A DNA stretch of 64,000 nucleotides from Actinotalea sp. Marseille-Q4924 (lineage in GTDB: Bacteria > Actinomycetota > Actinomycetes > Actinomycetales > Cellulomonadaceae): NCBI RefSeq assembly GCF_916618755.1, contig NZ_CAKAKB010000003.1, positions 372,001 to 436,000 on the forward strand. Direction: 5' to 3'. Position numbers and translations under genes: made by a program. A model generated the notes under the pieces. That model was not told where the DNA came from and made no database searches. It saw nothing but the letters and a program-made list of their open reading frames with translations. The first letter of the stretch is position 1. Every line of letters starts with the position of its first letter. Positions 33,754 through 35,802 of the stretch are shown in pieces.

Positions 33754-33754
<1 letters not shown>
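32477..33754 (-). CDS. DUF58 domain protein
   Basis: A 425-residue protein with two adjacent membrane helices (about residues 13-53) and a cytoplasmic or surface part with the DUF58 core: GVGPVQLHRADPFGVARW, then SPDDTALRDYRAGDDLRRVHWPTSARRGELVVRQDE, the family signature. The following segment VLLDLPQDADAGEWSIRLAASVAVAL resembles a von Willebrand A fold. DUF58 proteins are the usual partner of MoxR ATPases. The start overlaps the moxR stop by one base and the stop overlaps tgpA. Confidence 0.9.
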
Positions 33755-34752
<998 letters not shown>

Positions 34753-34791
34753 GGTCACCTCTTCGTCGGCCTGGACGAAGCCTAGGTGACC
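34753..34791 (-). promoter_or_regulatory. Long inverted repeat covering the moxR start region
   Basis: GGTCACCT and CTTCGTC (34753-34767) are matched by GACGAAG (34774-34780) and AGGTGACC (34784-34791), a 15-pair stem with a 3-base bulge and 6-base loop that ends at the base next to the ATG. In a transcript that includes both arms, the AGAGGTG ribosome binding site is fully paired. However TAGGCT on the minus strand (34784-34779) is a -10-like hexamer; if used, only one arm is transcribed and the repeat would act as a DNA operator. Confidence 0.65.
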
Positions 34792-34821: not shown

Positions 34822-35191
34822 CTCCTCAGCGTCCTCCGCGGACGCTCCACGCCGCTCCCACCGGCTCCGGTGCCGCGGCCGTGGACGCGCCCTCCACCGC
34901 GCTCCCCGGGTCGCCGGGCACCGCACTCCGCGTGACGCCCTCCGCATCGCTCCCGGCAGGCCCTCCACATCGCTCCCCGGCGCTCTCCCCGAGGCTCCCG
35001 AGAGGGTCCGACGGCGGGGACGGCGGTGTCAGGACGACGGACCTCCAGCGGCACATGCGGCCATCGCTGCAGGTCAGAGGGCCGCGACCCCGGAGGGCCC
35101 GAGCGTGCACGGACCGCGTCACCGGGCGGGTGCCCGGCCCGGCGCGACGCGCGGGGCCCGGTCAGCTCCGTGGCCCTCCACCACGCTCCCC
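34822..35191 (-). repeat. Phased array of CTCC-core elements, candidate MraZ boxes facing moxR
   Basis: Eighteen CTCC cores lie on the + strand, starting at 34822, 34834, 34845, 34855, 34865, 34892, 34902, 34926, 34940, 34950, 34963, 34973, 34985, 34995, 35043, 35166, 35176 and 35186. Eight of the 17 steps are exactly 10 bases. The clearest units read CTCCAC-N4-CTCC(C/A), that is GGGGAG-N4-GTGGAG towards moxR. The hexamer is the reverse complement of the boxes before mraZ. No gene fits this 549-base region: its open frames have no family features. Confidence 0.7.
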
Positions 35192-35252
35192 ACCCACTGA
35201 CCTGCGACGACGCCCGACACGCACCGCGTTCACCCGCGTGGTCGATGGGCGA

Positions 35253-35278
35253 GTGGAGGGTAGTGGAGTAATGTGGCG
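35253..35278 (+). promoter_or_regulatory. MraZ boxes and -10 of the mraZ/dcw promoter
   Basis: Three direct repeats GTGGAG (35253-35258), GTGGAG (35263-35268) and GTGGCG (35273-35278) are spaced exactly 10 bases apart. TAATGT (35269-35274), a fitting -10 hexamer, lies across the gap between boxes 2 and 3, so a bound MraZ ring would block the promoter. MraZ is known in other bacteria to bind three or four short direct repeats with this period upstream of its own gene. Confidence 0.85.
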
Positions 35279-35340: not shown

Positions 35341-35802
35341 ATGTCGGACACGCTGGGCCACGACGGCCCGCTGTTCCTCGGCACCTACACGCCCCGGCTG
35401 GACGAGAAGGGCCGCCTGATCCTTCCCGCGAAGTTCCGCGGCCAGCTCGCGACCGGCCTCGTCATGACCAAGGGCCAGGAGCGGTGCCTCTTCGTCTTCC
35501 CGGTCGGCGAGTTCCGCCGGATGCACGACCAGCTCCGCCAGGCACCGGTCACGAGCCGTCAGGCCCGCGACTACCTGCGCGTGTTCCTGGCCAGCGCGCA
35601 CGACGAGGTCCCCGACAAGCAGGGCCGGCTCTCCATCCCCGCCGGGCTCCGCGGCTACGCGGGGCTCGACCGCGAGGTCGCCGTCATCGGCGTCGGCACC
35701 CGCGTCGAGATCTGGGACGCGGCGGCGTGGGAGACGTACCTCGAGGAGCAGACGCCCAGCTACGCGCAGACCGCCGAGGAGGTGATCCCCGGTGCCTTCT
35801 GA
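35341..35802 (+). CDS. mraZ: Transcriptional regulator MraZ
   Basis: MraZ is a ring-forming DNA-binding protein of the AbrB-like fold that represses the dcw operon. The 153-residue protein has the two repeated halves: [22 protein letters not shown] and [23 protein letters not shown], each with the DxKGRxxxPAxxR motif that contacts DNA (Lys is replaced by a second D-K pair in the expected place). An 11-residue N-terminal extension precedes the usual start. Candidate MraZ boxes lie about 65-90 bases upstream. Confidence 0.96.

Follow-up and report, generated by a model that had tools for sequence, protein, structure and literature searches.

Inverted, helically phased MraZ-type box pairs upstream of mraZ in Actinotalea sp. 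Marseille-Q4924 and other actinobacteria

Many actinobacteria carry, as judged from sequence, extra MraZ-type boxes upstream of mraZ, which are inverted relative to those at the promoter and in step with helical turns. They were studied here from a 64,000-nucleotide stretch of Actinotalea sp. Marseille-Q4924 (referred to as the window). We read them as a distal portion of the mraZ operator, inverted and face-matched, which probably acts by bridging or looping of DNA; we place the probability of this reading at approximately 0.55. MraZ is a ring-forming AbrB-like regulator, which is widely conserved in bacteria and heads the dcw cluster.

MraZ-type boxes between moxR and mraZ

The mraZ gene (35341..35802, plus strand; start at 35341) matched PF02381 (1e-34) over two stretches, and is followed on the same strand by mraW. 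The solved relatives of its product by sequence were 1n0e, 9qlg, 9sx6, and 9qlr; the predicted structure had a mean pLDDT of 48.7, and this model was too poor for use. The minus strand carries moxR (AAA_3), a DUF58 gene, and a TgpA/transglutaminase gene, and the moxR-mraZ intergenic region was 589 bases. Long open reading frames cross this region; a coding function seems unlikely, the region being mostly unalignable with four relatives except for both ends and the A pair (see below). A promoter/terminator consensus scan detected neither a sigma-70-type promoter nor a terminator here. The features are as follows, with pairs scored out of 12 against GTGGAG-N4-GTGGAG.

33754..34752, minus strand: moxR (AAA_3), divergent neighbour of mraZ and an unlikely target; start taken as 34752
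34822..34839, minus strand: two outermost boxes (GAGGAG and GCGGAG), degenerate, steps of 12 and 11
34845..34870, minus strand: three-box run (GTGGAG, TGGGAG, and CCGGAG), period 10, best pair 10/12
34892..34907, minus strand: B-type pair, 11/12, 284 bases from A and out of phase with A
34940..34955, minus strand: B-type pair, 9/12, 23 bases above B and close to B phase
34963..34978, minus strand: B, distal inverted pair, 11/12, 213 bases above A
34985..35000, minus strand: B-type pair, 9/12, 22 bases below B and close to B phase
35166..35171, minus strand: third box, degenerate (ACGGAG), period 10 with A
35176..35191, minus strand: A, conserved inverted box pair, GGGGAG-N4-GTGGAG, 77 bases above F
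35253..35278, plus strand: F, putative mraZ-proximal MraZ-type operator, GTGGAG (35253), GTGGAG (35263), and GTGGCG (35273), exact period 10
35269..35274, plus strand: TAATGT, candidate -10 of the presumed mraZ promoter, between F boxes 2 and 3

The initial annotation had described three GTGG(A/C)G hexamers exactly 10 bases apart in the mraZ promoter, and these were borne out (35253, 35263, and 35273). A recount also returned its 18 CTCC cores in 34822-35278, with 8 out of 17 successive steps of 10 bases (12, 11, 10, 10, 27, 10, 24, 14, 10, 13, 10, 12, 10, 48, 123, 10, and 10). When the 589-base intergenic region was dinucleotide-shuffled (n = 2000), the mean CTCC count was 5.9 and the maximum 13, and none reached 18; the chance expectation of "about two" was therefore too low, but the conclusion of an excess beyond chance still stands. 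In the same 2000 shuffles, lag-10 CTCC pairs had a mean of 0.06 and a maximum of 2, and none reached 8. The cores had been taken as the reversed core of the MraZ hexamer: the motif matched, but full GTGGAG on the minus strand was found in 4 of the 18 only, the remainder being GGGGAG, CGGGAG, GCGGAG, and similar. The proposed extended array was broken into a distal block (34822-34998), a lone core at 35043, and then 35166/35176/35186.

Above F, CTCCAC-N4-CTCCAC pairs numbered five at a score of at least 10/12 (shuffle mean 0.19, maximum 3, 0/2000) and three at 11/12 or more (shuffle mean 0.02, maximum 2, 0/2000); 13 and 1, respectively, were found in the window outside the intergenic region (63.4 kb, both strands). 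Short GTG-core repeats with a period of approximately 10 bases, the form of an MraZ operator, were thus present at this locus. The upstream boxes are MraZ-type by sequence, and an extended MraZ-type array appears to be the best reading: the operator motif, the period of 10, and the recurrence of the pairs in relatives were retained from the initial annotation, but not service to the moxR-DUF58-tgpA operon.

The window's A and its two stronger B pairs include the weaker box GGGGAG. The distal pairs at 34985, 34963, and 34940 follow each other at 22-23 bases and lie close to the A-relative phase of the class, and the boxes at 34845 and 34855 fit the A phase only roughly. TAGGCT at 34779-34784 (minus strand) is a possible moxR -10, and was also seen upstream of moxR in several relatives. 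Elsewhere in the own genome, an exact GTGGAG-N4-GTGGAG was present only once, far from mraZ (contig 3, 869860-869875, minus strand).

Inverted pairs and their phasing in relatives

Of 319 loci from the matches listed, 306 were entered, forming 239 sequence clusters of mraZ-upstream regions. Twelve of the 319 lacked the MraZ anchor motif and were left out (L002, L095, L187, L188, L299, L300, L315, L318, L328, L330, L334, and L355), as was one more with too little upstream sequence; the pattern matches L118-L153 were also excluded from the 239-cluster set. Besides the loci given by the search, 160 regions were taken from part of the genomes, one being only 294 bases (contig end). Counts are lower bounds where regions contain N, and the clusters, being defined by sequence, do not amount to independent events; a sister-pair test (below) guarded against kinship. 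The main cut-off was a score of at least 11, and an A site was defined by this score at 60-104 bases above F.

F scored at least 11/12 in 224 out of 239 clusters, and TGGNG-TANN(G/A)T was found in 237, TANN(G/A)T probably being the mraZ -10, which MraZ would cover. This candidate -10 is inside F, and A and B are 77-400 bases upstream, away from the promoter. Above F, 313 GTGGAG-N4-GTGGAG pairs (score of at least 11) were detected in 178 of the 239 clusters, all on the opposite strand, versus 0 in the forward orientation and 13 with the reversed control. An A site was present in 140/239 clusters, and A or B in 176; 2 more contained inverted sites of at least 11 solely outside the A and B ranges. 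At the cut-off, 63/239 clusters lacked both A and B, so the layout is not a universal requirement. Most Promicromonospora loci were without A and B despite a divergent moxR, the inverted pairs being lost or decayed to a single box in L077, L082, and L089. In the Micromonospora clusters listed, A was kept and B was not seen; the divergent gene of L098 has a Mur ligase domain.

In a scan of periods from 6 to 25, a period of 10 was by far the highest, with smaller peaks at 12-13 and 22-23 (37-45 matches each), which were taken to come from arrays. Among 30 distinct permutations of the hexamer, rotations scored through overlap (CCTCCA 186, TCCACC 126, and CCACCT 46), and the best non-rotation scored 25 (median 3). 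In the genus set of 19 genomes (the own genome and 18 others), 35 out of 41 exact GTGGAG-N4-GTGGAG matches were within 600 bases of the mraZ start. Since the reversed pattern gave 26 exact matches genome-wide in the same genomes (positions not listed) versus 41, the motif is not rare by itself, and its concentration at mraZ is the evidence. At the class level, the combined A and F pattern was found in 46 out of 296 genomes, some of which look like chance, versus 12 matching the reversed control.

The A-F distance was mostly 75-78 bases (approximately 77), with smaller groups at 65-68, 85-90, and 97-101. In 18 moxR-type clusters (e.g. L175 and L243), A was located at -96 to -101, approximately two turns beyond the usual position, and 16 of these 18 were without B. 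B was mostly 90-250 bases above A. In 104 loci with A of at least 10 and B of at least 11, the distance from A to the nearest B ranged from 48 to 276, and fell into groups of 103-106, 113-116, 123-127, 135-138, 144-150, 155-161, and 165-172, followed by a tail. For the 102 loci with distances of less than 260 bases, R was 0.64 at a period of 10.95 bases, which was equalled by none of 2000 jittered sets, and the signal was kept when each of the 50 distinct distances was counted once (0/2000). A stricter A cut-off (90 loci) gave a bootstrap period range of 10.64-11.27. The best period differed by neighbour class, 11.0 (moxR) versus 10.55 (DUF3040), and the lags of single CTCCAC boxes were fitted best by 11.4 among the periods tried. 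The operator spacing follows the helical repeat, as expected of looping operators.

An artefact from the choice between boxes 10 bases apart was rejected as the source of this phasing: R at a period of 10.0 was 0.345, below that at 10.95, and the same period was obtained from 88 B pairs that had no third box next to them. Among disjoint nearest locus pairs, 34 out of 45 differed by more than 3 bases, and these differences favoured multiples of 10.95 (5/5000 uniform and 3/5000 jittered sets were as good); therefore, kinship is not the whole cause of the phasing. It could partly reflect the decay of an older continuous array, to which the best fit of 11.4 for single-box lags would point.

Alternative explanations and the extended distal block

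The inverted boxes might instead serve the divergent moxR-DUF58-tgpA operon as operators and so link it to MraZ, as the initial annotation had proposed. They are indeed located upstream of moxR and point towards it, with B beginning 48 to 298 bases from the start of moxR in the loci listed. However, the layout was kept where moxR was absent. The upstream neighbour was a divergent moxR in 161 of the 239 clusters, a DUF3040 gene co-directional with mraZ in 57 (PF11239 in the five example proteins used), and neither in 21; A and B were found in 106 and 89 of the first class, 28 and 36 of the second, and 6 and 2 of the third, respectively. In the DUF3040 class alone (24 loci), B was phased to A with an R of 0.68 at the best period of 10.55 (0.54 at 10.95). 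Among 65 moxR-divergent clusters with both A and B, the position of B kept phase with A (R 0.73; sd 32 bases), but neither phase nor a fixed distance linked it to the start of moxR (R 0.21; sd 77). Furthermore, of 29 moxR-like loci found at other places in genomes of the DUF3040 type, none had a pair of at least 11 within 600 bases upstream, and 5 had one pair at 10 (three facing moxR); the start of these loci was set 150 bases before the Walker motif (1 out of 30, without this motif, was left out), and their orthology is unproven, 14 being 55-63% identical to the window's moxR and the others possibly paralogues. From the DUF3040 class, the phasing, and the moxR-like loci, we therefore assigned the boxes to mraZ and rejected moxR as the target; operators dedicated to moxR are quite unlikely. 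A side effect on moxR may occur in the own genome.

The refuting outcome named in the initial annotation, loss of the phasing in orthologous regions where the mraZ-proximal boxes persist, was seen in part: F, A, and a single B pair are retained by the two closest relatives, but the extended array was absent from both. At the strict cut-off (at least 11), A was accompanied by two B sites in the own genome, but by a single B in MAG-52 (again 213 bases above A) and in A. ferrariae CF5-4 (203 bases). By this comparison, the distal block is apparently a local expansion of the own genome relative to its two nearest relatives. Six non-overlapping pair units of this array shared a spacer and flank identity of 0.456 versus 0.33 for random windows (2/2000), which suggests that they are diverged duplicates, and three near-copies of a 19-base unit were found in it. 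The looser 18-base form, GCCCTCCRCNNCGCTCCC, occurred four times in the own genome, all here, ruling out a dispersed genome repeat, and once each in 2 out of the 18 other genus genomes. Seven out of 239 clusters, with either neighbour, had at least three B sites at 11 or more (L157, L269, L314, L344, L349, L351, and L352); in multi-pair B zones, steps of 22-23 bases were the commonest (14 out of 37 successive B-B steps). The longest inverted array seen was that of L349 (G245), with 13 matches of at least 10 (A included, some overlapping).

The extension at 34822-35000 may be neutral, because it is absent from the two nearest relatives: it would have grown by short repeats from B, and only F, A, and one B would matter. 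Its diverged 22-23 base units and the out-of-phase pairs are consistent with such growth, whereas the units keep their cores while their flanks differ (a partly circular argument, since units were picked by core), and multi-pair arrays arose in other lineages too. We regard neutral growth as possible, although doubtful on balance; it is compatible with the main explanation for F, A, and one B. If the distal boxes were instead decoys soaking up MraZ and setting its free level, with copy number as a dial, the wide variation in box number between lineages and the recurrence of multi-pair arrays would be explained, but the strong strand rule and helical phase to A are not needed by a decoy, which makes this unlikely. 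Binding of the inverted pairs by a factor other than MraZ seems very improbable: their box and spacing are those of F, as are the spacer letters in many cases, and exact pairs are concentrated at mraZ. Other factors do appear to act at this position, judging from the parts of a report (PMC9602371) in which MtrA binds the mraZ promoter in Dietzia, and TGACCTGC, at 35198-35205 (plus strand) directly after A in the window, was found at most 110 bases above F in 130 out of 239 clusters, mostly beside A.

Proposed operator and known systems

According to the preferred reading of the pairs as a distal part of the mraZ operator, the MraZ ring would bind the forward boxes of F, straddling the likely mraZ -10, and also the inverted pairs A and B upstream. 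Near whole-turn spacing would place the rings at F, A, and B on matched faces, where they may contact each other or share DNA, and the region would fold, tightening the autorepression of mraZ and the dcw operon. An inverted distal site would fit DNA that turns back to run antiparallel to the promoter segment, or two rings that face one another. In the own genome, the B zone may have grown by short diverged duplications to approximately four further pairs (9-11/12). The sequence itself shows the motif, its spacing, the strand bias, the phasing, the recurrence in relatives, and the independence from moxR; from these patterns we infer that MraZ binds, represses, and bridges or loops the DNA, and that box number may matter. 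A tentative extension, for which we hold only limited expectation, is a multi-ring folded MraZ complex over some 300-450 bases above dcw in this actinobacterial order, occupying forward boxes at the promoter and inverted ones above them along one helical face, with box number having been amplified repeatedly as a dial for division genes. Inverted distal operators near whole turns, across families, offer a direct handle on the question of DNA bridging by MraZ rings; were bridging to occur, a folded complex would control the dcw promoter, not a single promoter-blocking ring.

Looping repressors of the lac, ara, and gal systems use distant operators spaced by whole helical turns. The present arrangement shares the whole-turn spacing, but differs in having a ring-forming AbrB-like protein and tandem boxes, with looping suggested by spacing across species. 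A MraZ site is also known in C. glutamicum. According to the available parts of two papers (PMC7761207 and PMC8475190), the dcw promoter is under the control of MraZ, which binds tandem repeats with a GTG core, and such short repeats occur upstream of mraZ in E. coli, Mollicutes, and Burkholderia cenocepacia (Eraso 2014 and Fisunov 2016, via those papers); B. cenocepacia has four 7-base repeats with 3-base spacers, which give a period of 10. The boxes here are alike in their GTG core, tandem repetition, and position above mraZ, and in the period of 10 of B. cenocepacia. As far as those sources go, the known boxes form a single array at the promoter, whereas the extra pairs here are found 77 to 400 bases further up, in inverted orientation and in phase, with amplification in some cases. 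Since, in the part of PMC7761207 available, B. cenocepacia MraZ shifted a fragment from -250 to -1 but not one from -386 to -136, distal binding does not appear to be general to MraZ, and would be a lineage trait if real. Control by MtrA in Dietzia (PMC9602371) is alike in acting at an actinobacterial mraZ promoter, but involves another protein, and no such box pairs were seen in the parts of that report available. In the open-licence PMC literature, no paper was found that deals with actinobacterial MraZ boxes in an inverted or distal position, or with control of moxR by MraZ.

Two short sequences accompany the boxes. The copy of TGACCTGC was placed 54-56 bases above F in 102 out of the 130 clusters. 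TTCACCC is at 35229-35235 of the window, with GGGTGAA at a like place in other loci, and is possibly a half-site of another regulator; one or both of these were found at most 60 bases above F in 83 out of 239 clusters, versus 2 in one mononucleotide shuffle each.
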